A stretch of DNA of 27,186 bases. Origin: a virus. The translations under genes were made by a program, and so were the position numbers. The stretch spans positions 1 to 27,186 of IMG/VR virus record IMGVR_UViG_3300036716_000873; one strand, given 5' to 3'. How positions within the stretch are numbered: position 1 is the stretch's first letter; every line of letters starts with the position of its first letter. Shown one piece after another: positions 10,561-27,186 of the stretch. Under the pieces are notes generated by a model. The model was not told the origin of the DNA and ran no database searches. It worked only from the letters and a program-made list of their open reading frames with translations.

Positions 10561-12476
10561 TGGCTGCTGAAGAATCCCTATTAGTAAAGGTTGAATATGT
10601 TGATGTTTTTGATTTTCCTGATCTCTCAAGTGTGGGACACGTTTATCAAGTGGGCATCAATGGCACAGGTTATATGCTGGCAGACCATCCAGAGAAAGGT
10701 CAAGAGTACCGCCGTCAGGTTATACCTCTTGACCCTCAGCGGTTAGCCACTTCTGATACCCCTTTCAGTGAGGCAATCGAAAGATACTCTTTCGCTGCTG
10801 CTGACACATGGGATGCAGGTGCTGGTCAAAAGTATTTACATAGAGGTTCTTCTACTGCTTCTGGCTATTGGGAGTCAACTGGTTTAGACCCTTTTACAGA
10901 TCCCGGAAAGATAAAACTCTTACCTTCTGTCGTTCTGGAAGAGGCTGAGAGCTATGCAAGTTTAAGGCATGTCGTTGTGGGGAATACTCTTTACATGCAG
11001 ACAGGTGATTTAGCCCTCAAGTATGTGACTTCTCCAAGTGCAAGCCCACAAGCTATTACTGTTGCGGCTTCAGGTGCTGCAGTAACTGATTTGACAAGTG
11101 ATGGTCAAAAATGGTACGCCTGTAATGGGACGGATATTCATAGAGGTACTACTAGTTCAAATCCCGGTGCTTGGTCTACCCAAAATGCTTATGAAGTTGA
11201 ATGGGCTGCAGGAAGAATTTGTGCGGCGGTAGCCAGTGCAGGTTCTACGCCTAATAGATTTACTACTCTCAATGACAGTGGAGCGGAAGAAAAATCTAAT
11301 GGGCATCTTACTTTACCTGAAGGAACGACTATTACTCTTGGTGGGTCTACTGGTGGTCATTTCTATTTTGGAGGTTCTACCTCTGCTACTGGTTCTGTCT
11401 ATGCTTGGAAGTTAGGTTTAGATGAATCAGGTGATTTCTTCGTGCCTTTTGAGGCACTTAAACTACCCGATGGCTTGGAGGTGGCTACTGTTGCTACAGG
11501 TGGAGGGTATGTTTGGGTTAGAGCTTATAGACCAGAAGGCTCTAATAAAGGACAGGCTCTACTGTATCAATGTGTAGTCGATGGTAGTGGCGCTTTAATA
11601 GCCACTGTTGTTACAGAGATAGCCCCTGTCGGAACTTCAGCAGATCATAAAGTGGGAGCTTTTGCTACCCACGAGGATCTAATGTTGTTTGGTTGGAAAA
11701 CAATGGCTAGTAGTCATGCTGGCACAGGTGCCGTTTCATTAACTACTGGTGGTTGGGCTAAATGGTATGAGGCTAGTGTTGATGGTGATGTTTCTTCTAT
11801 AAGTATTTGGCAAGGGTTACCTGTGTTCTCTATAAGAGGGCATGGAGTTTACAGAACCCATGCTTCACAGTTTGTTACTGCTGGAGAGTTAAAGACTTCT
11901 TTCGCTGATGGTGCTTCTGGTTTGTTCAAGGTGTGGGATGATGTAACTCTCACTATGGACCCTTTAGGAACTGGCGAGTCAATTACTGTTACTGCAACTG
12001 TAGACGGTGGGGCTAATTATTCTTCTCTTACTGGTGGTACGGTTTCTGAACAGTTAAAAACCCATACTGTAGAGATAGGTAAACAATCTAAAGAGTTGGG
12101 ATTGAAGCTGTCATTTGTTGGTAATGCTTCTGGTGACTGTGCGCTGACTTTCTTGTCAGCTAGATACCATCCTCTTGGCTTGGCAGACACCCTCATACAG
12201 ATACCTGTTGATTGTGGCGATCATTTGAAAGGAATGAATGGTGCGCCTCTTGGTGAGAATGGTGAAGGTGCAGGTATTAGGAGAGCTAGGACACTACAGA
12301 ATCTTGTTCAAACGAGAGTTAAATTTCAAGATATTGACTGGCATGTGACTGGCTCCACAGATGTTTTTGAGGTTGAAGCCTGTGATTTACAGGCGGTTAC
12401 CTTATACGAACCTTCCAGATCAGGTTCTGCAATTCGTTTAATAGCGACTCTAACCCTCCGAAAAGTAGGTTCTTAG
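10560..12476 (+). CDS. Large beta-rich tail protein
   Basis: A 638-residue protein without signal or membrane segments. Many short Trp/Gly-rich blade-like segments (RHVVVGNTLYMQTGD, SDGQKWYACNGTDIHRG, GGGYVWVRAYRP, HEDLMLFGWKT, WQGLPVFSIRGHGVYR) look like a beta propeller or stacked beta sheets. The C-terminal ~150 residues have another beta module (ITVTATVDGGANY) ending in ATLTLRKVGS. Size and position at the end of the tail block suggest a tail nozzle or hub-type component, but no family signature is certain. Confidence 0.55.
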   Translation: MAAEESLLVKVEYVDVFDFPDLSSVGHVYQVGINGTGYMLADHPEKGQEYRRQVIPLDPQRLATSDTPFSEAIERYSFAAADTWDAGAGQKYLHRGSSTASGYWESTGLDPFTDPGKIKLLPSVVLEEAESYASLRHVVVGNTLYMQTGDLALKYVTSPSASPQAITVAASGAAVTDLTSDGQKWYACNGTDIHRGTTSSNPGAWSTQNAYEVEWAAGRICAAVASAGSTPNRFTTLNDSGAEEKSNGHLTLPEGTTITLGGSTGGHFYFGGSTSATGSVYAWKLGLDESGDFFVPFEALKLPDGLEVATVATGGGYVWVRAYRPEGSNKGQALLYQCVVDGSGALIATVVTEIAPVGTSADHKVGAFATHEDLMLFGWKTMASSHAGTGAVSLTTGGWAKWYEASVDGDVSSISIWQGLPVFSIRGHGVYRTHASQFVTAGELKTSFADGASGLFKVWDDVTLTMDPLGTGESITVTATVDGGANYSSLTGGTVSEQLKTHTVEIGKQSKELGLKLSFVGNASGDCALTFLSARYHPLGLADTLIQIPVDCGDHLKGMNGAPLGENGEGAGIRRARTLQNLVQTRVKFQDIDWHVTGSTDVFEVEACDLQAVTLYEPSRSGSAIRLIATLTLRKVGS

Positions 12477-13209: not shown

Positions 13210-13405
13210 GGAGAAAGACGGCACATCTAAAGCCGTTAAACTCATCGCCGCTATAACAGGTTTGTTGGTAGCTATTGGTACTCTTGTGGGTGCTATTACT
13301 GTGACTTTAGGGAAGAATGACCCTAGCCCTTATCAGGGTGGAATGACCATAATTTTAGATAGTCCTGAAGCCTATGCCACGTTCCTTGAAAACCATCCGG
13401 GTTAA
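13202..13405 (+). CDS. Small single-pass membrane protein
   Basis: A 67-residue protein with a charged N-terminus (MSEEKDGTSKAVK), one hydrophobic helix (~residues 14-36, LIAAITGLLVAIGTLVGAITVTLG) and a short hydrophilic tail ending in a SPEAYATFLENHPG helix. It overlaps the upstream gene (ATGAGTGA). A second holin or antiholin is possible from size and neighbours. Confidence 0.5.
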   Translation: MSEEKDGTSKAVKLIAAITGLLVAIGTLVGAITVTLGKNDPSPYQGGMTIILDSPEAYATFLENHPG

Positions 13406-13406
13406 C

Positions 13407-13673
13407 ATGCAACCGAATGAATTATCAGGAATGAAAGTTTGGATTGACCAAGATCTCTGCACAGGTGACGGACTCTGCGAAGAGATAGCACCCTCTGTTT
13501 TTTTCGGTCACGATGATGGTCTTTTCTACGTCAAGGAAGATGGTTCCGAAACACCGAAAGAACCAACTCACAAGATGAGTGAAACTGTTGATGTTAAGCC
13601 TGAGAATGTTGAGGCAGTAATCGAAGCGGCTGACGAATGTCCCGGTGAGTGTATCTTCATTGAATTAAGCTAA
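13407..13673 (+). CDS. Ferredoxin with Asp-type cluster motif
   Basis: A small acidic ferredoxin (88 residues from this start) that would carry low-potential electrons. The cluster motif is C18-x2-D21-x2-C24 with the distal C78-P, so the usual second cysteine is Asp. Such motifs bind a [3Fe-4S] cluster or a [4Fe-4S] cluster with Asp as ligand, as in Pyrococcus furiosus ferredoxin. An extra C82 is present. The phrase WIDQDLCTGDGLCEEIAP is like ferredoxins I know from actinobacteria, where partners include cytochrome P450s. No such oxidoreductase partner is in the window. ATG 13407 lies 1 base after the previous stop. An inner ATG at 13431 would match the family start but has poor ribosome-site spacing. 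Confidence 0.85.
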   Translation: MQPNELSGMKVWIDQDLCTGDGLCEEIAPSVFFGHDDGLFYVKEDGSETPKEPTHKMSETVDVKPENVEAVIEAADECPGECIFIELS

Positions 13674-14010: not shown

Positions 14011-14028
14011 TTGACATGTGAGTGTCAA
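14011..14028. repeat. Dyad TTGACA-N6-TGTCAA, copy near integrase
   Basis: TTGACATGTGAGTGTCAA has the exact half sites and 18-bp length of the right-arm dyads, with the seventh pair a T-G wobble. It coincides with the start of the Cys-rich peptide at the convergent junction with the integrase. It could be an operator site or an RNA hairpin. Confidence 0.6.
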
Positions 14029-17304: not shown

Positions 17305-18309
17305 TTACCTGTGGATAATCGAGGAACTCTCTAATTCTTTGGAACTGCAAACTGAGTTGAAAGCCCATTTCATAATTGGCTCTAACCACTGGTCTGCATC
17401 TTCTATAGCTTCTGCAAACCTGCCACCGGGAGGTGTCAGTATTCCAGTTCTATTTATACCTGTATCTAGTAGCACTTTCTGTGTGGCGTTTCTGCCTGCT
17501 TCATCATCATCAAATGCAAGAATTATCACTTTGTACCGCTCAAGTGTCTTACACCATTCTTTTCTCCAAGTAGATGCTCCAGATGGTAAGGCAAAGCAAT
17601 CGACTTGCCCTTTAGACCATTTCTGTAGACACCATAGATCAGATTCTCCCTCAACTATTATTGACACACTGTTGTCAACATTTTGAGGAGTGACTGTATA
17701 TAGTCCAGAGGAGAAAGCTGAACCTGTTACCGAGTATTTAGCCCCTGAGCGAAAATCACGTACCTTTATCCCTCTGACTATTCCTTGTTGGTCTCTATGT
17801 GGTATCCAAAGAACATCCCCATACTTTTCATCGTTTTTAAGAGCTACACCATACTGCAGTAAGTCATCTAAAGTCAGGAAAGACCACTTACCAGAAACCC
17901 ATCCCTTAGCGGTCTCGTAAGAGTCCGTAGAACCCTCTGGTTGCTCTTCAAAAAGATCAGTAAGGTCAGGCAACTCGATTTTCTTCACAGGCGCAGGACG
18001 GCGTGTAAATAAGGCACTGGTGCGACCTGAGAGTATCTGTAAAGCCTCACCGTAACTACAACCTTTTGCTAACTGGACGAGCTTAATTACATCACCTGTT
18101 TCTCCAGTGCTAAAATCATGGAAATGCTCGTCTTTATCCCCGAAACTTCTACTATATATATGACAAGAAGGAGTGTGATCTGAAGGGTTCGTCAAAGACC
18201 TTATCTTATGTTGCCTGTTAGGGGACTCAAGCCCAACCAGTCGAATAGCATCAAGCATACTCACAGACTCTTTTATATGGTCTCTCAAACGATTATCGAA
18301 TTTTGGCAT
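17305..18309 (-). CDS. DnaG-type DNA primase
   Basis: 334 residues from the ATG at 18309, whose A overlaps the previous stop (TAATG). A TTG two codons upstream is less likely. It would make RNA primers for phage replication. The N-terminal ~90 residues resemble the CHC2 zinc-binding domain in layout (TPSCHIYSRSF ... HDFSTGETGDVIKLVQL), but the usual cysteines are largely missing. The Toprim catalytic domain has E220 (VEGESDLW) and FDDDEAGRNA (~266-275). There is no fused helicase. A separate DnaB-like gene lies upstream in the same operon. Confidence 0.82.
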   Translation of the reverse strand: MPKFDNRLRDHIKESVSMLDAIRLVGLESPNRQHKIRSLTNPSDHTPSCHIYSRSFGDKDEHFHDFSTGETGDVIKLVQLAKGCSYGEALQILSGRTSALFTRRPAPVKKIELPDLTDLFEEQPEGSTDSYETAKGWVSGKWSFLTLDDLLQYGVALKNDEKYGDVLWIPHRDQQGIVRGIKVRDFRSGAKYSVTGSAFSSGLYTVTPQNVDNSVSIIVEGESDLWCLQKWSKGQVDCFALPSGASTWRKEWCKTLERYKVIILAFDDDEAGRNATQKVLLDTGINRTGILTPPGGRFAEAIEDADQWLEPIMKWAFNSVCSSKELESSSIIHR

Positions 18310-19311: not shown

Positions 19312-19700
19312 CTCATCTCCACACCCTGTCTATTGAGACAGCGCCTTGATGGATACCAGTGGGATAAGCCTCCCCATCTTTCATTCCCATTCTGGTTATA
19401 GAAAAGCCAACTGGCTACTGCTACGTTTGCGACTGGATCGTAGATACTGCTACCCTCAAAACCGGCTTTTCTGCTACGTTCGTCCCACCACTTCGGTAAG
19501 TGCTGGAAAAATCCTGTGGCTCCGCTCTTAGGGTTGACCGCTGTCGAATAAAAATCATTAGGATCAGCAGATGACTCACAAAAGGCTACAGCTAGGAAAG
19601 TATCCTGATCCTCAGGAGCAAAGAAACTTGACACAAGTTCGTCAAGTGAGGCACAACCGCCTACATTAACTAGAGAAAGAACTAATGCTAATCTCGCCAT
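19308..19700 (-). CDS. Lipoprotein lytic transglycosylase-like protein
   Basis: A 130-residue protein. The N-terminal signal peptide ends in a lipobox (VNVGGC, lipidated C16). Then an SLT-type domain: catalytic-type E42 in AVAFCESSADPNDF, GATGFFQHLP (~60-69, the GxxQ segment) and a C-terminal WGGLSHW. Such enzymes cut peptidoglycan glycan strands. The unexpected place is inside a replication operon, far from the endolysin. It overlaps a small membrane protein by 13 bases. It could act in late lysis, in DNA entry or in exclusion. Confidence 0.7.
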   Translation of the reverse strand: MARLALVLSLVNVGGCASLDELVSSFFAPEDQDTFLAVAFCESSADPNDFYSTAVNPKSGATGFFQHLPKWWDERSRKAGFEGSSIYDPVANVAVASWLFYNQNGNERWGGLSHWYPSRRCLNRQGVEMR

Positions 19701-21324: not shown

Positions 21325-22229
21325 ACTTTCTCCTTGTGTTGAGTACGTCCAAATGGACACCTTACCCAGTGATCGCAATATGCCTCACTGCAAAGGAATG
21401 ATTCCGTGTTAGGGAAAAATGGTCCACCCTGATCCACAGCTAACGCCACGAGTTTAGCTGTCAGCATGGTGGCTTCGACTTGTTCTTTATCTCTCTCTTC
21501 ATGGATACGCCAGAAAGGTTTAACAGGAGGCTTGTTACCTCTCACTGGCTTCTTCAAAATCTTATCTATCTCAACAGCGATAACATCGTAAACAAATGTA
21601 ATCTCGGCATCTGGATTTCCTAGCATATGTCTAACAGCGTTAATGTAATAACTTGCTTGTGGAGTTTTATGTGCAGAGAACTTGTCACTACGAGGAGGCT
21701 TCTTAGTTGTCTTGTGATCCACGATATATATATTGCCGTAGTTGTCTCGTAAATTCAAATCCATTGTCCCACCAAGTTCCCAGTTAGGGACACCTGATTC
21801 CCAGTCAAGTTTGAAAGTATGCTCGACTGCTAACACTTCATAGTTCTCATCCCAGTAACATTCTTCTTTGAAGTAGTATTCAAGCATTCTATTTATGAAT
21901 GCGATTGACATGAACTTGTCAAGTATTACTTCATCTTCTGAAGCGGTTTTAGGTTGATATATCCAGTTGAAATCATCTGTGATTTCTAATTCGTGCTTAA
22001 AGGCTTCTGTGGCACATTCTTGAAACTCATCAAGCATGTATAGGAGATGAACGTCACCAGTCTCTTTTCTAGTATTGTAGTAAAGTTCCAGACCAGCATG
22101 AAAACCTGTACCTATAGCTCTAGAGACACCATTACCATAAGGGATGTTTGGATCTATAGCATACTTTAGTTTCTGACCGCACTGCATAGCCGTGCTTATC
22201 AACGACTGTCTCATTAAATTGTTCTTCAA
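21321..22229 (-). CDS. Cas4/RecB-like PD-(D/E)XK nuclease with cysteine cluster
   Basis: A 302-residue nuclease. The catalytic core has GGTMDL (D157) and IVDHKTTKK (D171, K173). C17 near the N-terminus and C280, C285 and C291 near the C-terminus are arranged like the four cysteines that hold a [4Fe-4S] staple in Cas4, AddB and related enzymes. The likely job is exonucleolytic processing of DNA ends for recombination or replication. The start is TTG at 22229, supported by GGAG 7 nt upstream and an overlap with the HTH gene stop. An ATG at 22214 is the alternative. Confidence 0.78.
   Translation of the reverse strand: MKNNLMRQSLISTAMQCGQKLKYAIDPNIPYGNGVSRAIGTGFHAGLELYYNTRKETGDVHLLYMLDEFQECATEAFKHELEITDDFNWIYQPKTASEDEVILDKFMSIAFINRMLEYYFKEECYWDENYEVLAVEHTFKLDWESGVPNWELGGTMDLNLRDNYGNIYIVDHKTTKKPPRSDKFSAHKTPQASYYINAVRHMLGNPDAEITFVYDVIAVEIDKILKKPVRGNKPPVKPFWRIHEERDKEQVEATMLTAKLVALAVDQGGPFFPNTESFLCSEAYCDHWVRCPFGRTQHKEKV
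21905..21922. repeat. Dyad TTGACA-N6-TGTCAA inside nuclease gene
   Basis: TTGACATGAACTTGTCAA has exact 6-base half sites at the same spacing as the right-arm dyads, but it lies inside the nuclease coding sequence and the seventh pair mismatches (T-T). It may be an intragenic operator or a chance match. Confidence 0.45.
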
Positions 22230-23334: not shown

Positions 23335-23412
23335 TGTCCGATCAACGCACTTCAACTGCACACATTGACCATCGCTGTCCGGTCAACGCACTTCAACTGC
23401 ACACATTGACCA
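23335..23412. repeat. Tandem repeat, period 41 bp, two copies
   Basis: The unit TGTCCG-R-TCAACGCAC continues to CACACATTGACCA. Copies at 23335-23371 and 23376-23412 differ at one base in 37. Each holds a GRTCAA ... TTGACC inverted pair, related to but distinct from the TTGACA dyads. It lies in the control region before the endolysin operon and could be an operator array or origin-like iterons. Confidence 0.7.
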
Positions 23413-23442: not shown

Positions 23443-23460
23443 TTGACAGGCGACTGTCAA
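23443..23460. repeat. Dyad TTGACAG-N4-CTGTCAA, control region
   Basis: TTGACAGGCGACTGTCAA is a perfect 7-bp dyad with the same layout as the cassette dyads, here between the leftward terminator and the endolysin gene. On the minus strand the first half could serve as a -35 box (TTGACA, then TGCATT after 17 nt, a poor -10). Confidence 0.65.
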
Positions 23461-23560: not shown

Positions 23561-23791
23561 CTACACGAATGTATCCTGTTCTGCAAGTTCTGGCTTAATT
23601 GATCTAGCGCCATTGATAAACGCTTTGACCTCCCCAGTGTTCAGGTAGTAACTGGCTCGTTCGTTTATTTGAACGAACCACCTGTTACGACCATCTTCAC
23701 GGTTTGTATTAGGCTCATTGAAGAACTCTTGAATGTAACCATCCCGCCTCATTACTTCTAAAGCGGTATGTATTCGTGATGTTTGAGTCAT
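23561..23791 (-). CDS. Small hypothetical protein, winged-HTH-like
   Basis: A 76-residue protein, unrecognised. The pattern of helix (RIHTALEVMRRDGYIQEFF), charged turn (NRED) and strands (RWFVQIN ... YYLNTGEV) resembles a small winged-helix but is not diagnostic. The start follows AAGGAGGAAATTCA. It is the last gene before the leftward terminator. Confidence 0.55.
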   Translation of the reverse strand: MTQTSRIHTALEVMRRDGYIQEFFNEPNTNREDGRNRWFVQINERASYYLNTGEVKAFINGARSIKPELAEQDTFV

Positions 23792-23803
23792 TGAATTTCC
23801 TCC

Positions 23804-23986
23804 TTATTCGTCAGGCTTAGGTTGGGAGAGATGTCTGGCTCTTCTGACAGCATCCTCCATTTTGTAATATGACTCACCGATGTCAATACCTAAATTATTG
23901 AGTATTCGATACTCTGGCATCATTGAAGAACTACTTAAATAAATAACGTTCTTTTTGACAATGTGAGTCTGTGCTGTAGTTGTCAT
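23804..23986 (-). CDS. Hypothetical 60-residue protein
   Basis: Start chosen at the ATG overlapping the upstream stop (ATGA), giving MTTTAQTHIVKK. The frame can be extended upstream to 24088 but that would overlap the membrane gene. It has a basic start, a Ser-rich segment and a helical tail (DAVRRARHLSQPKPDE). No family recognised. Confidence 0.55.
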   Translation of the reverse strand: MTTTAQTHIVKKNVIYLSSSSMMPEYRILNNLGIDIGESYYKMEDAVRRARHLSQPKPDE

Positions 23987-24120
23987 GTGCAAATCACCCC
24001 ATCTAGAGAGCATGTGTAGTCCTTGTCTAGCGTACCAGCTATTCCTAAGACAGCTAAGGCAACTATTAAAAATAACACAATTCTCCAATTAGTGATTAAC
24101 CATGACATTGGTTTAATCAA
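23983..24120 (-). CDS. Small membrane protein, TTG start
   Basis: A 45-residue single-pass membrane protein: short polar N-terminus, hydrophobic helix (RIVLFLIVALAVLGIAGTL), then a Cys-containing tail (YTCSLDGVICT). The first ATG (24108) is 22 nt from the AGGAGG site, while TTG at 24120 is 10 nt away and in frame, so TTG is favoured. The stop overlaps the next gene's ATG. Function unknown. Confidence 0.5.
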   Translation of the reverse strand: MIKPMSWLITNWRIVLFLIVALAVLGIAGTLDKDYTCSLDGVICT

Positions 24121-24148: not shown

Positions 24149-24166
24149 TTGACACGTTCGTGTCAA
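24149..24166 (-). repeat. Cassette dyad 5 (TTGACAC-N4-GTGTCAA)
   Basis: A perfect 7-bp stem with loop GAAC in the minus-strand RNA, 2 nt downstream of the tRNA-like element and 12 nt before AGGAGG. The loop differs from the other cassettes while the stem is fixed. Confidence 0.85.
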
Positions 24167-24168
24167 TC

Positions 24169-24213
24169 GTCCCCTACGAGGAATCGAACCTCGATTGAAC
24201 CGTTAGGGGTATC
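24169..24213 (-). ncRNA. tRNA-like minihelix, element A
   Basis: RNA sense: acceptor-type 5' strand GATACCCCT, linker AACGGTT, T-arm CGAGG-TTCGATT-CCTCG and 3' strand AGGGGAC. CCCCT pairs with AGGGG, and two outer pairs form if single A bases bulge. The loop is a canonical TPsiC loop and the linker holds the GG pair expected to dock on it. There is no D-stem or anticodon arm. It starts 4 nt after the stop of the 69-residue gene. Confidence 0.75.
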
Positions 24214-24217
24214 CATT

Positions 24218-24427
24218 TTATTGAATGGCATCAAGCCTGTAATCCACAAGCTGGATCTGATGACCAACTAAATTAGGCACTATCTTTTCAGATAGAGCGT
24301 TTGTTGCTTCCACGTACCACTCTTCCATTAGTTGATCTGCAGTAGTATCAAGCAATGGGGTTTCTAAGTGGTTTGACTTGGATGTGTCAAACGTGACTTC
24401 AAAGGTGGCTCTAATTTTATATTTCAT
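24218..24427 (-). CDS. Hypothetical 69-residue protein
   Basis: Unrecognised. It has an N-terminal beta strand (MKYKIRATFEVTFDT) followed by helices, similar in outline to two other small right-arm proteins (25257-25445 and 25459-25635). Start overlaps the previous stop (TAATG). It ends 4 nt before tRNA-like element A. A degenerate copy of the cassette dyad lies inside it. Confidence 0.55.
   Translation of the reverse strand: MKYKIRATFEVTFDTSKSNHLETPLLDTTADQLMEEWYVEATNALSEKIVPNLVGHQIQLVDYRLDAIQ
24373..24390. repeat. Degenerate dyad copy within a coding sequence
   Basis: TTGACTTGGATGTGTCAA differs from the dyads at 25916 and 26669 at only two of 18 bases and shares their GGAT-GTGTCAA right half. 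It lies inside the 69-residue gene. Confidence 0.4.
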
Positions 24428-24537
24428 TAGTCCTCATCTCTATCTAAGAAACAGTCATAGCAAAGGTTCTGTCCTAAATGCTTTTGAATGTCACCTTTAT
24501 GATCTTCTGCACATTGGCAGGTGTCGCATGTAAGCAT
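24427..24537 (-). CDS. 36-residue zinc-ribbon-like protein
   Basis: MLTCDTCQC ... LCYDCF: C4-x2-C7 and C26-x2-C29 could form a minimal zinc ribbon, with C9 extra. It starts in a TAATG overlap with the upstream gene and ends in another with the downstream gene, so it is translationally coupled in the cassette. No known family can be named. Confidence 0.5.
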   Translation of the reverse strand: MLTCDTCQCAEDHKGDIQKHLGQNLCYDCFLDRDED

Positions 24538-24647
24538 TAGCCCTCCTCTGTGAATTTTTGGTAATCGCTACCATCACGAAGATTTTGAGCTTCTTCATCG
24601 CTATCAGTTTCCTCAATAACGAACTGTTCTAAATGTTTGTCAGTCAT
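24537..24647 (-). CDS. 36-residue acidic peptide
   Basis: MTDKHLEQFVIEE begins a highly acidic helical peptide ending KFTEEG. Its ATG overlaps the end of the upstream 86-residue gene by 8 bases, and its stop overlaps the next ATG. Supported by the coupled arrangement, not by homology. Confidence 0.45.
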   Translation of the reverse strand: MTDKHLEQFVIEETDSDEEAQNLRDGSDYQKFTEEG

Positions 24648-24900
24648 TTGACTCACCTCTGTCAAGAATTGTTAAATCCTCTAAAAGAGTAGTTATCAAA
24701 CGTAGAGCCTTCTTTTTGGTAAGACGACCTTCTGGGAGACGCTCATAAAGTTCTAAAACTTCTTCAGCTCTCCAGAGAGCTTGATTACCTTTAGTCATTT
24801 TCAGACCTCGTTCTACTTCCAGCTTGAGAGCCGTCCGTATTGACAAAAGTCTGTAAACTTCTATTTGTTCAGGTGTATCTAATACAAAACCTTCACTCAT
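24640..24900 (-). CDS. Hypothetical 86-residue helical protein, cassette 4 lead gene
   Basis: Start at MSEGFVL, preceded by AGAGGAGGAAATACT. The longer frame to 24999 only reads through the tRNA-like leader. The protein is mostly helical and charged (PEQIEVYRLLSIRTALKLEVERGL, LWRAEEVLELYERLP, ALRLITTLLEDLTILDRGE). No domain recognised. Confidence 0.6.
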   Translation of the reverse strand: MSEGFVLDTPEQIEVYRLLSIRTALKLEVERGLKMTKGNQALWRAEEVLELYERLPEGRLTKKKALRLITTLLEDLTILDRGESND

Positions 24901-24926
24901 AGTATTTCCTCCTCTGTGTTGAGAAA

Positions 24927-24944
24927 TTGACACGGTTGTGTCAA
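24927..24944 (-). repeat. Cassette dyad 4 (TTGACAC-N4-GTGTCAA)
   Basis: A perfect 7-bp dyad with loop AACC in the minus-strand RNA, about 16 nt before GAGGAGG. In this cassette it is separated from the tRNA-like element by an extra hairpin. Confidence 0.85.
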
Positions 24945-24947
24945 CTA

Positions 24948-24964
24948 ATTCGCTATTTGCGAAT
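24948..24964 (-). other. Extra hairpin unique to cassette 4
   Basis: ATTCGC-AAATA-GCGAAT (minus strand), 6-bp stem with a 5-nt loop, inserted between the tRNA-like element and the dyad. In the other four cassettes only 2 nt separate those elements. Confidence 0.6.
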
Positions 24965-24965
24965 C

Positions 24966-25009
24966 GTGCCGTTCTGGGAATCGAACCCAGATTAACCATT
25001 AACGGCTAC
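24966..25009 (-). ncRNA. tRNA-like minihelix, element B
   Basis: RNA sense: GTAGCCGT with one bulged A pairs over 7 bp with ACGGCAC. Linker includes AATGGTT. T-arm TCTGGG-TTCGATT-CCCAGA is 6 bp. The acceptor sequence differs at most positions from the GTCCC-type copies but pairs fully. It starts 4 nt after the preceding stop codon. Confidence 0.78.
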
Positions 25010-25013
25010 CTAA

Positions 25014-25256
25014 CTAATTAATGCTGTCTTTACGAATCCTGTAAACCCTTACAACTGCATCATCAGAAAACTCGTCACTGAGTTGCCAATTCATCCAGTC
25101 AGGTTCTTCTTGAAAGTGGTGATGGTAAACAACAAAGTTTACGTAATCGCTTTCTTCGTAATGAATGTTGAAAGATAAAACAGTAAACGTGCCATCATCA
25201 TTTTTAATAAGTTCATCAGGGAACTCATCTGATTCAGTCAGTATTGTTTCAAGCAT
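25014..25256 (-). CDS. Hypothetical 80-residue acidic protein
   Basis: Begins directly after the upstream stop (TAAATG). Beta-rich with aromatic residues (FTVLSFNIHYEESDYVNFVVYHHHFQEEPDWMNWQL), acidic overall. No family recognised. Confidence 0.55.
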   Translation of the reverse strand: MLETILTESDEFPDELIKNDDGTFTVLSFNIHYEESDYVNFVVYHHHFQEEPDWMNWQLSDEFSDDAVVRVYRIRKDSIN

Positions 25257-25445
25257 TTAGCCCTCTCCCTGTGTTGTGTACCCTCTGATGTAGTATGACG
25301 CTTCACCATTTTCATAACTGGTAGCGATGTCAACAGGATCAAGGTTTGACGCTTTAACCATTCGCAACGCTTCTTCAGAGGTGTCAGCTTCCACATTCAC
25401 AGTCCCATAATATGTGAGATGAACTCCCACTTCATAATTCGGCAT
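25257..25445 (-). CDS. Hypothetical 62-residue protein
   Basis: A small protein with a strand (YEVGVHLTYYGTVNVEAD) then helix (TSEEALRMVKAS), a layout shared with the neighbouring 58-residue protein, suggesting distant duplication. GAGAGGAGAGCTT precedes the ATG. Confidence 0.55.
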   Translation of the reverse strand: MPNYEVGVHLTYYGTVNVEADTSEEALRMVKASNLDPVDIATSYENGEASYYIRGYTTQGEG

Positions 25446-25458
25446 CTAAGCTCTCCTC

Positions 25459-25635
25459 TCATCCTTCTGATGTTTGGGTAATTTGCCTACTGGTTTCAGT
25501 AGCATAATCAGGCTCTGCGTACAAGCCTTCTAATTGTGCTAAAGCCAGATCATAGGCTTCATGTTCATCTCCAGCATCCACTTCGATAACTTCAGCTACT
25601 TCAAACATGACGCTTACATCGCAGTAAAATTTCAT
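25459..25635 (-). CDS. Hypothetical 58-residue protein
   Basis: MKFYCDVSVMFEVAEVIEVDAG starts a strand-strand-helix protein (helix DEHEAYDLALAQLEGLY). Its ATG overlaps the upstream stop (ATGA). It resembles the downstream 62-residue protein in layout (strands, acidic turn, EA-rich helix). No function can be assigned. Confidence 0.55.
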   Translation of the reverse strand: MKFYCDVSVMFEVAEVIEVDAGDEHEAYDLALAQLEGLYAEPDYATETSRQITQTSEG

Positions 25636-25889
25636 GGTGTTTCCACCTCAAAATGTGAGGCAAGCACCTGTTCAAAATCTTGAACCGCCTCTGTGAGGTC
25701 TGATCCTAAAGTCGGATCAAAGTTATCTTTAATCAGTACTGTAACTGATAATTTTTCAGTGGTCCTGTCTGTCCACTCATCTTCCCCATTACATAAGTGT
25801 CCAAATTCACTTTGGAACTCATCAACAAGGTGGTCTACTGCTTTCACATCCGACCACTTGTCAGGTATTGTTATTGTTATTACTCGCAT
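25632..25889 (-). CDS. Hypothetical 85-residue protein, cassette 3 lead gene
   Basis: Start at MRVITITIPDKW, preceded by AGAGGAGGAAAACCTTA. The upstream extension to 25922 reads through the leader. Beta-alpha-beta like pattern (MRVITITIP, DVKAVDHLVDEFQSEF, KLSVTVLI). Acidic. No family recognised. Confidence 0.6.
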   Translation of the reverse strand: MRVITITIPDKWSDVKAVDHLVDEFQSEFGHLCNGEDEWTDRTTEKLSVTVLIKDNFDPTLGSDLTEAVQDFEQVLASHFEVETP

Positions 25890-25915
25890 TAAGGTTTTCC
25901 TCCTCTTTTTATTTG

Positions 25916-25933
25916 TTGACACGGATGTGTCAA
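25916..25933 (-). repeat. Cassette dyad 3 (TTGACAC-N4-GTGTCAA)
   Basis: A perfect 7-bp dyad with loop ATCC in minus-strand RNA, 2 nt after tRNA-like element C and upstream of AGAGGAGG. Confidence 0.85.
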
Positions 25934-25935
25934 GC

Positions 25936-25980
25936 GTCCCTTTGCAGGAATCGAACCTGCACTAAAACCGTTAAGGGGAC
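25936..25980 (-). ncRNA. tRNA-like minihelix, element C
   Basis: RNA sense: GTCCC(C)TT pairs with AAGGGAC over 7 bp with one bulged C. Linker AACGGTTTTAG. T-arm TGCAGG-TTCGATT-CCTGCA is 6 bp. It starts 6 nt after the preceding stop. The inner acceptor pairs TT/AA covary with AG/CT in element D. Confidence 0.8.
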
Positions 25981-25986
25981 AGGCGG

Positions 25987-26208
25987 TTAGTAGCCTGTGC
26001 TTGGGTGTTGGGTATTTACATTAGTGCCATGAAAGAGGAGCATAACTTCAGCTACTCTTCTAAGTTCCACTAATGGGCTCATATCTCCACCACTCAAGTC
26101 TCCACGTTTGATTAAAGAAACATTCCATTCAACCAACTCGTGTAACTCTTTGATAGGCATATCCATTATTGTCTTAAGCCTGCTTTCATCAAAAGATAGG
26201 TCATTCAT
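25987..26208 (-). CDS. Hypothetical 73-residue helical protein
   Basis: ATGA overlap with the upstream 145-residue gene. Mostly helical (ESRLKTIMDMPIKELHELVEWNVSLIKRG ... PLVELRRVAEVMLLFHG). No recognised domain. It ends 6 nt before tRNA-like element C. Confidence 0.55.
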   Translation of the reverse strand: MNDLSFDESRLKTIMDMPIKELHELVEWNVSLIKRGDLSGGDMSPLVELRRVAEVMLLFHGTNVNTQHPSTGY

Positions 26209-26642
26209 ACTGATACGAGCTTATCTTTTTTGAAGAAATCACGAGAGCTTGTGTAGCACTCGTTAGCCATTGCCAAAACGTTATGGTCATGGTTTGACAA
26301 CTTTACGTCAAAACCATTTCCCAGACGATCTGGAACATGAAAACGTCTGACGATATTCCATTTCTGGTCACCGTATCGGTTTAACACATAAACACCGTTG
26401 TCATAGTTGTCACAGTCAAGTCTCCCGACTGTGTTTACATAGACACTCAGGTGTCCCTTGAACCAGTTACCCAACATCTGAATGAACCTAGATGGCTCAC
26501 TGATGTCTAATCTGGTTGCAGACATGCAAAAACCTTCAATGGACTCAATACCACCATTCCAATGTAAGTAAATGCCAACCTGTGAATTATCTAACTCTTC
26601 AAGACTTCCATCTTGAAAAGTTATTACTGCTCTATTTCCCAT
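26205..26642 (-). CDS. Hypothetical 145-residue protein, cassette 2 lead gene
   Basis: Start MGNRAVITFQDG has GAGGAGG upstream. The longer frame to 26675 reads through the leader. The protein has a beta-rich core (NRAVITFQDGS, VGIYLHWNGGIESIEG), an aromatic-rich middle (MLGNWFKGHLSVYVNTV, RYGDQKWNIVRRFHVPD) and a helical C-terminus. I recall similar openings in uncharacterised phage and plasmid proteins but cannot give a function. Confidence 0.6.
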   Translation of the reverse strand: MGNRAVITFQDGSLEELDNSQVGIYLHWNGGIESIEGFCMSATRLDISEPSRFIQMLGNWFKGHLSVYVNTVGRLDCDNYDNGVYVLNRYGDQKWNIVRRFHVPDRLGNGFDVKLSNHDHNVLAMANECYTSSRDFFKKDKLVSV

Positions 26643-26668
26643 GAGTTTTTCCTCCTCATTTGTTTTTA

Positions 26669-26686
26669 TTGACACGGATGTGTCAA
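26669..26686 (-). repeat. Cassette dyad 2 (TTGACAC-N4-GTGTCAA)
   Basis: A perfect 7-bp dyad, loop ATCC in minus-strand RNA, 2 nt after tRNA-like element D. Identical in sequence to dyad 3. Confidence 0.85.
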
Positions 26687-26688
26687 TA

Positions 26689-26732
26689 GTCCCAGTCTAG
26701 GAATCGAACCTAGATACAACCATTCTGGGGAC
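26689..26732 (-). ncRNA. tRNA-like minihelix, element D
   Basis: RNA sense: GTCCC(C)AG pairs with CTGGGAC over 7 bp with one bulged C. Linker AATGGTTGTA. T-arm TCTAGG-TTCGATT-CCTAGA is 6 bp. It begins 6 nt after the stop of the 123-residue gene. This is the cleanest copy. Confidence 0.82.
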
Positions 26733-26738
26733 AAAGCG

Positions 26739-27110
26739 TTATGCGATGTATTGCCCTTTTCTATCCATTTTAATAACTGGGCGAACTTCTGCCAGCTTGG
26801 ACATAATTTGGTTTACACGAATTTCTGCCTGCTCATTTACGAGCGTGGCGTTCTCTTCGTAGAACTTACGACCAAAGGGAGCTTTTGCCCTCTCGCCTGC
26901 TCTCTGTAAAGCATCACTGAAATATAAGTCATACTCGCCATCATGCCAGTAGTCCTCACCTTCCCACCATGTAGCAACGACATAAGATCTATCTCTATGT
27001 GGATGACCTTTGTCAACGCTTACACAAACAATCACATAATCAGGATTATTTAATGCAGGTATTACTGAAATGACTTTATAGCCATTGATTACAGGTAATG
27101 AATTATTCAT
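26739..27110 (-). CDS. Hypothetical 123-residue protein, cassette 1 gene
   Basis: Start MNNSLPVINGYKVISV follows AGAGGAGGAAAA. The longer frame to 27146 reads through the leader. Beta-rich N-terminal half (YKVISVIPAL, YVIVCVSVDKG, RSYVVATWWEGEDYWHDGEY) and a helical C-terminal half (DALQRAGERAKAPFGRKFYEENATLVNEQAEIRVNQI). No family recognised. Confidence 0.6.
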   Translation of the reverse strand: MNNSLPVINGYKVISVIPALNNPDYVIVCVSVDKGHPHRDRSYVVATWWEGEDYWHDGEYDLYFSDALQRAGERAKAPFGRKFYEENATLVNEQAEIRVNQIMSKLAEVRPVIKMDRKGQYIA

Positions 27111-27128
27111 TTTTCCTCCTCTGTTATA

Positions 27129-27146
27129 TTGACACGGTTGTGTCAA
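27129..27146 (-). repeat. Cassette dyad 1 (TTGACAC-N4-GTGTCAA)
   Basis: A perfect 7-bp dyad, loop AACC in minus-strand RNA, 2 nt after tRNA-like element E. AGAGGAGG follows 7 nt later. Confidence 0.85.
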
Positions 27147-27148
27147 TA

Positions 27149-27186
27149 GTTCCCCATACAGGAATCGAACCTGCTTTAACCATTTG
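27149..27186 (-). ncRNA. tRNA-like minihelix, element E (cut by window edge)
   Basis: The visible RNA has the linker AATGGTT, a T-arm GCAGG-TTCGATT-CCTGT and the 3' acceptor strand TGGGGAAC. The 5' acceptor strand is mostly outside the window, with only CA visible. The partner strand should read roughly GTTCCC(C)CA. Confidence 0.7.

Follow-up and report, generated by a model that had tools for sequence, protein, structure and literature searches.

Five tRNA-like minihelices lie between small-gene blocks of a viral DNA

The DNA considered here is the complete IMG/VR virus record IMGVR_UViG_3300036716_000873, which is 27,186 bases long and is referred to below as the window. Its minus strand, from 27186 to 23561, forms a block of small genes that carries five short units resembling a tRNA without its anticodon arm, which we call minihelices. 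Each unit is 42 to 48 nucleotides (nt) long, has an acceptor-like stem of 5 to 7 base pairs (bp), and reads from 5' to 3' as a 5- to 6-nt acceptor strand, AAYGGTT plus 3 to 5 nt (a linker of about 10 nt), a T-arm with the loop TTCGATT, and the acceptor 3' strand. An earlier sequence-only reading had proposed five such minus-strand units, and this is borne out: the pattern GGTTN{4,11}GGTTCGATTCC matches the window five times against 0.00 expected in shuffled sequence, our covariance model R1 matches all five units, the last of which (27146-27186) is cut by the contig end, and within the window ARAGORN finds no tRNA and no Rfam family matches even at E<=5. The acceptor/T-arm layout of that reading also stands, with the stem sizes corrected: in the window, a well-paired acceptor of 5 to 6 bp and a T-stem of 5 to 6 bp make one continuous stack of 11 to 12 bp. 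No DNA-level relative of the window was found among reference phages.

Beyond the acceptor, the window units continue with AC[GT]N, a TTGACAC-N4-GTGTCAA hairpin (the second hairpin), GAGGAGG, and a start codon. All features named in this paragraph are on the minus strand. Minihelix 1 (27146-27186), whose 5' part is lost at the contig end, was identified by the pattern and by R1 and has an intact orthologue in the relative L127 at 11954-11999; it is followed by the second hairpin TTGACAC-AACC-GTGTCAA (27129-27146) and by g1 (26739-27110), which encodes a 123-amino-acid protein of unknown function (MNNSLP...). Minihelix 2 (26685-26731; CCCAG-AATGGTTGTA-TCTAGG-TTCGATT-CCTAGA-CTGGG-ACTA; R1 53.9 bits, E 8e-13; fold -13.7 kcal/mol) and its second hairpin (26669-26686; 9 bp counting flanks, fold z -7.1) precede g2 (26205-26642; 145 amino acids), which g3 (25987-26208) overlaps by 4 nt. 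Minihelix 3 (25932-25979; CCCTT-AACGGTTTTAG-TGCAGG-TTCGATT-CCTGCA-AAGGG-ACGC; R1 56.4 bits, E 1.5e-13), with a second hairpin at 25916-25933, leads into the small genes g4-g7 (25014-25889). Minihelix 4 (24963-25007; GCCGT-TAATGGTTAA-TCTGGG-TTCGATT-CCCAGA-ACGGC-ACGA; R1 44.2 bits, E 6e-10; fold z -3.3) has an extra hairpin predicted by folding, GATTCGC-AAATA-GCGAATT (24947-24965), ahead of the second hairpin TTGACAC-AACC-GTGTCAA (24927-24944) and of the small genes g8-g11 (24218-24900). Minihelix 5 (24165-24211; CCCCTA-ACGGTTCAAT-CGAGG-TTCGATT-CCTCG-TAGGGG-ACGA; R1 47.4 bits, E 7e-11), with the second hairpin TTGACAC-GAAC-GTGTCAA (24149-24166; fold z -3.9), introduces g12-g14 (23561-24120), where the transcription unit ends.

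With E denoting an element, the order is thus E [g1] E [g2 g3] E [g4-g7] E [g8-g11] E [g12-g14]; units occur only between blocks, and the genes within blocks overlap or almost abut (g2/g3, g4-g7, g8-g11, g12-g14). The units had been described as preceding small-gene cassettes: their placement between genes holds, but what they set apart are separate blocks of overlapping genes, not single genes. Just 3' of g14, at about 23530-23470, inspection by eye suggests an intrinsic terminator with a long loop, of a kind outside the loop limit of our scan. Two 37-nt tandem copies of TGTCCGRTCAACGCACTTCAACTGCACACATTGACCA (23335-23412; 97% identical, spacing 41) lie in the interval that separates the endolysin gene from the end of the operon, and possibly represent an origin or control site. 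Judged by eye, a ferredoxin-like small protein is encoded at 13374-13673, in the midst of genes for phage structure and replication.

The acceptor and T-arm stack is supported by covariation

Pairing was assessed in 305 distinct A[CT]GGTT units picked purely by sequence, so that pairing was not demanded. An acceptor of at least 5 bp is present in 261 of them, and 256 of these also have a T-stem of 4 bp or more; when partners are exchanged among the units, only 0.3 to 9 pairings per register result. In 238 of the 256 units the stack ends 11, 12, or 13 positions from the T-loop, with 12 the commonest, and the T-stem and acceptor trade length (5+7, 6+6, 7+5) while the total is kept, as in tRNA. 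A second data set, the alignment A2 of 64 diverse sequences, consists of rows required to have a 5-bp acceptor, so the unselected tests of pairing are the A[CT]GGTT set and the GG control described below. Within A2, 90.4% of cells pair, compared with 49.8% after shuffling and no more than 49.5% when controls are slid; covariation scores 0.981 versus 0.172 shuffled, two-sided changes occur at all seven acceptor pairs and at 4 of 6 T-stem pairs, and RNAalifold unaided recovers the inner 11 pairs. Orthologous genes carry elements with different stem sequences and the same architecture. The pairing support that the sequence-only reading had asked for in homologous phages is therefore strong, both as covariation and as in-register pairing, and we regard the stacked acceptor/T-arm structure as near certain.

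The GG linker is the equivalent of the D-loop

Selection by sequence alone gave 277 viral AAYGGTT matches, of which 227 have the acceptor paired in register (119/137 with AATGGTT and 108/140 with AACGGTT). When the GG is replaced in the search pattern, a paired acceptor is found in only 6 of 125 matches (4/91 with CC, 2/34 with GA; Fisher p about 1e-52). AATCCTT is a crowded control that also matches ordinary tRNAs, and its matches lack acceptor pairing; the few exceptional matches in this test resemble the 3' halves of ordinary tRNAs. A D-stem around the GG is present in rare copies only. Ahead of one membrane-protein gene, three orthologous mycobacteriophage elements have the D-stems TCAC/GTGA (Cuke), CCGA/TCGG (Fowlmouth), and CTC/GAG (Indlulamithi), which covary and whose loops each hold TGGT. 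Because these covarying stems enclose the GG, the AAYGGTT linker is the equivalent of the D-loop. The GG control and the D-stem copies favor the earlier suggestion that the linker GG docks on the T-loop; by analogy with tRNA, such docking would form the tRNA elbow.

Elements in two further phage contigs, L116 (2898-4702, minus-strand coordinates) and L203 (1249-2903), also have a 3- to 4-bp D-stem around the GG and no anticodon arm. A larger tRNA-like form occupies the gap between genes 49 and 50 of Mycobacterium phage Cuke (L339, 6319-6419): it has a 7-bp acceptor (GACCGTA/TACGGTC), AATGGTTT, a long 8-bp arm, a T-arm, and a full ACCA tail, and ARAGORN makes no call there.

The elements are distinct from tRNA genes and from Rfam families

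The units share with tRNA the 12-bp acceptor/T stack, the T-loop TTCRANN, and the GG of the D-loop, and the sequence-only reading had raised the possibility of decayed full tRNAs or of a model that matches ordinary tRNAs only. Neither was found. When an acceptor, T-stem, and T-loop are demanded and the linker length is left free, lengths are bimodal: a peak at 9 to 14 nt, which is ascertained by the way the loci were fetched, is separated by a sparse range of 15 to 34 from the tRNAs, which begin at 38. Two control loops yield close to zero in this test, and in the viral loci fetched by control patterns, 729 forms are tRNA-like and none is of the short GG kind. Across eight whole bacterial genomes, R1 gives 0 to 3 matches each at E<=1e-4, at element sites, versus dozens expected from tRNA genes, and none of its matches is to a tRNA of these genomes. 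Except for one true tRNA-Ser, ARAGORN detects no anticodon arm and cloverleaf at the element loci checked. Decayed tRNA genes or chance tRNA fragments, whose T-loop and stack length the units do match, are thus rejected as next to impossible given the bimodal linker, the covariation, the strict placement, the unmatched tRNAs of eight genomes, and the presence of up to 12 copies per phage.

No match reaches the gathering score of an Rfam 15 family in the window and six relatives; the best similarity is to the transfer-messenger RNA (tmRNA) family RF00023, for which the scores are 20.2 and 19.4 bits and the gathering score is 47. The sequence-only reading knew of no family with this layout, and we likewise find none in Rfam or, in a search limited to the open-access literature, any prior description. 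The elements appear to constitute an RNA family without an Rfam counterpart, which is seemingly new, while the fold itself is of a known tRNA-like kind.

A modified CCA-like tail and a second hairpin follow the minihelix

Immediately 3' of the helix, 151 of 230 units read N73 (mostly A)-C74-N75-A76, and this sequence tracks the helix end whether the helix has 11 or 12 bp. Only 9 of these 151 anchored units have C at position 75, the other 142 having A, T, or G (p=0.001 versus local background). The tail is therefore CCA-like with its middle C changed, and the NCCA end of a tRNA is encoded in only 9 units. An encoded CCA is also absent from many phage and bacterial tRNA genes.

The TTGACAC-N4-GTGTCAA hairpin belongs to the same leader as the minihelix in the window, which contains 20 matches to it at up to 3 mismatches versus 1.8 expected, the exact ones only at the five units. 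Across 114 leaders with a Shine-Dalgarno-like motif, 43 have a stem of at least 7 bp after the minihelix versus 6.4 expected; the enrichment is weak in leaders lacking the motif. Over all leaders, second hairpins mostly begin 1 to 6 nt 3' of the helix and comprise 66 distinct sequences. Between orthologous genes, the minihelix and the second hairpin both differ but keep their order, which indicates that both are under selection at the RNA level. Further TTGACA-N-TGTCAA palindromes with 1 to 2 mismatches lie outside the elements, at 14011-14028, 17661-17678, 19628-19645, 21905-21922, and 23443-23460 of the window, and the sequence may double as an operator or part of a promoter.

Elements adjoin the ends of coding sequences

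In 144 of 232 units, where chance would give about 18, the upstream stop codon lies -10 to +20 nt from the start of the helix; the next ATG is mostly 10 to 50 nt downstream, and both are close in 129 of the 232 (19 by chance, p<1e-70), which leaves little room for a promoter. Unit midpoints avoid open reading frames of at least 80 amino acids (88/256 inside, compared with 1,027/1,280 random positions), and a Shine-Dalgarno site often lies between the unit and the next start. In Cuke, ten annotated gaps of 79 to 200 nt separate genes between gene 35 and gene 54; as judged by eye, eight contain a clear tRNA-like form, one has a changed T-loop, and one has no element. The elements thus adjoin coding ends within what gene order suggests to be a polycistronic transcript, as in tRNA punctuation. 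The annotated starts of SEA_CUKE_43, 44, and 52 fall in or upstream of an element (L339, MG757156: 4188-4240, 4476-4523, and 7803-7847); the true starts probably come after the AGGATGG site 3' of the element.

Elements are associated with phages and integrative elements

Six near relatives (L126-L131), with 1 to 10 units each, were retrieved by a pattern that includes the second hairpin, and the minihelix-only patterns AATGGTT or AACGGTT, N{3,10}, GGTTCGATTCC match at least 119 IMG/VR contigs each, so that relatives in this database number in the hundreds. Some phages have many copies per genome, including the cultured Mycobacterium phage Cuke with 10 and Indlulamithi with 12 (R1, E<=0.01; a few of the weakest are partial). 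Named carriers are the M. smegmatis phage Cuke and its relatives, S. agalactiae phages, and L249, a contig related to M. abscessus prophages. Copies also occur in cellular-genome contigs of Bacteroidota (Epilithonimonas, Chryseobacterium, Elizabethkingia, Parabacteroides, Tannerella, Dysgonomonas, and others), Bacillota, and Glycomyces, where 35 of 105 pattern matches have a paired acceptor, compared with the viral proportion given above. Among the genes flanking ten cellular loci are those for Mu-type transposases, at five loci of Bacteroidota, and for an integrase, an HNH endonuclease, and an FtsK-like protein, which suggests prophages and integrative elements. When 478 genomes were drawn at random from four phyla, they yielded one new match beyond the seeds under strict filters; elements outside phages and prophages are rare in cellular genomes. 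Three Glycomyces loci (L345, L363, and L438) have two element forms each, AACGGTT and ATCGGCAA with the T-loop TTCGAGG; an FtsK-like gene adjoins the elements in L363, and the loci are possibly an integrative conjugative element.

No gene family near the elements is common to more than 16 of 190 loci, and the fetched, partial flanks contain no shared gene that could encode a reader, which suggests that the reader is probably a host factor.

Possible roles of the elements

The conserved features imply a reader that needs a T-loop, a D-loop GG, a 12-bp stack, and a CCA-like tail but no anticodon, which fits RNase P. We judge it about evenly probable that the elements are operon punctuation in the polycistronic mRNAs of phages and prophages, cut by host RNase P and perhaps by RNase Z. 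The GG of the D-loop equivalent would dock on the canonical T-loop to create a tRNA elbow atop the 11- to 12-bp stack; RNase P would read the T-loop, the 12-bp stack, and the 3' tail and cut at the 5' edge of the helix, 0 to 20 nt after the upstream stop. Gene blocks would thereby be separated, each with its own 5' end, and the downstream mRNA would gain a structured one. A second step by RNase Z is possible, in which a cut after N73 would place the second hairpin at the newly made 5' end. A CCA at positions 74 to 76 blocks RNase Z, which would explain the loss of C75.

A published review of RNase P is consistent with this scheme: minihelices of acceptor and T-stem-loop are cut at the normal site, the 12-bp length has been suggested as a measuring device, R73, C74, and C75 pair with the RNase P RNA subunit while A76 stacks, and known substrates include phage M3 RNA, C4 RNA, and T4 gene 32 mRNA (PMC11143913). 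Several observations weigh against cleavage by RNase P. With C75 so rare (9/151), most anchored units forgo one of the three pairs that RCC makes with RNase P RNA; A predominates at N-1, and the G1-C72 pair lacks conservation. In pre-tRNAs, U is usual at N-1. A cut at the helix would also leave the upstream mRNA ending a few nt past its stop, without a protecting hairpin. With confidence a little short of even, we tentatively extend operon punctuation to the family: an undescribed, widespread class of RNA in phages and mobile elements may mark gene boundaries for host tRNA maturation enzymes, with no phage factor needed, and may include the smallest natural module of the tRNA elbow.

A possible though unlikely alternative is that the element remains uncut as an mRNA leader that stabilizes the message or promotes its translation, by blocking 5'-3' exonucleases or serving as a ribosomal-protein platform, and so isolates each block. 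Its position 10 to 50 nt upstream of the start codon, the second hairpin and Shine-Dalgarno site that often come next, and the weakened RNase P contact at position 75 agree with such a role. A plain hairpin would do for it, however, whereas the kept GG, T-loop, 12-bp length, and NCNA tail ask for a reader of tRNA shape, and a helix starting 0 to 10 nt past the upstream stop would be disturbed by terminating ribosomes.

It is rather improbable that the element acts as a mimic, of either the tRNA elbow or the tRNA-like domain of tmRNA, that binds or titrates SmpB, T-loop modification enzymes, EF-Tu, or tRNA-targeting defense proteins. The sub-threshold similarity to tmRNA, in which the acceptor, a D-loop-like UGG, and the T-arm align, speaks for it, but most copies lack an encoded CCA end, an element within an mRNA has no free 3' end, and a decoy would not need to sit between gene blocks. 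Transcriptional control by a terminator, antiterminator, or attenuator is quite improbable: tandem hairpins between genes would suit it, and the put RNA of HK022 sets a precedent for antitermination RNAs of phages, but such control has no need for elbow conservation. The window elements lack a U-run and so are not terminators, and promoter-like or terminator-like sites are not enriched in the region, on which ground a terminator or promoter was rejected.

We find it very improbable that the elements are boundaries of cassettes at the DNA level, that is, tRNA-derived sites of integration or recombination for module shuffling. Phage integrases often use tRNA 3' ends, the window encodes an integrase, and modules differ between relatives. 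However, the stems vary freely yet stay paired, orthologous genes carry differing element sequences where a recombination site would conserve its own, and element orientation is that of the transcript. A DNA-only operator or recombination site was rejected as a principal explanation since the stems covary.

Returning to the elbow-like fold itself, it indicates how little of a tRNA may suffice for an elbow, and the copies with and without a D-stem are a ready test series. If the processing proposed above is correct, the elements offer phages a general way to cut operons into blocks with host enzymes and provide a natural set of RNase P substrates without an anticodon domain.

Comparison with known systems

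Among phage RNAs, C4 antisense RNA (RF01695) is likewise linked to RNase P; its processing is known, whereas that of the present units is proposed, and it has no Rfam match in the window or six relatives. Cluster K mycobacteriophages carry SAS, a 13-bp GGGATAGGAGCCC repeat by the start codon, and ESAS, with 17-bp imperfect inverted repeats (PMC3203893). These resemble our elements as repeats with inverted repeats just upstream of many mycobacteriophage start codons, but they have a conserved 13-bp sequence and no described T-loop or D-loop, and it is by description only that we set them apart.

The tRNA-like domain of tmRNA has an acceptor stem, a stemless D-loop (UGG), a T-arm, and a tRNA-like tail in common with the units, which differ in lacking the 330-nt insert and mRNA-like domain, rarely encode CCA, and score far below the gathering score. 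The AT1-type minihelix, a model substrate of RNase P (PMC11143913), matches the units in its T-loop, its 12-bp length, and its pair of coaxial stems; it is man-made, whereas the natural units lack C75 and have a conserved D-loop-like linker in addition. The mascRNA of MALAT1 (PMC11658184) differs in deriving from a mammalian long noncoding RNA at a single locus.

A close parallel may be found in mitochondria, where plant t-elements and tRNA punctuation rely on tRNA-like RNAs recognized by RNase P and RNase Z (PMC11658184; PMC8601606). There, too, tRNA-like RNAs adjoin coding sequences at mRNA ends in polycistronic transcripts. The t-elements are homologous to tRNA genes and are predicted to fold into near-normal cloverleafs, neither of which applies to the phage units; these lack an anticodon arm and usually a D-stem, are phage-borne and multicopy, and are proposed, rather than known, to be cleaved. 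If that proposal is true, the elements would be a bacterial-virus counterpart of mitochondrial tRNA punctuation.

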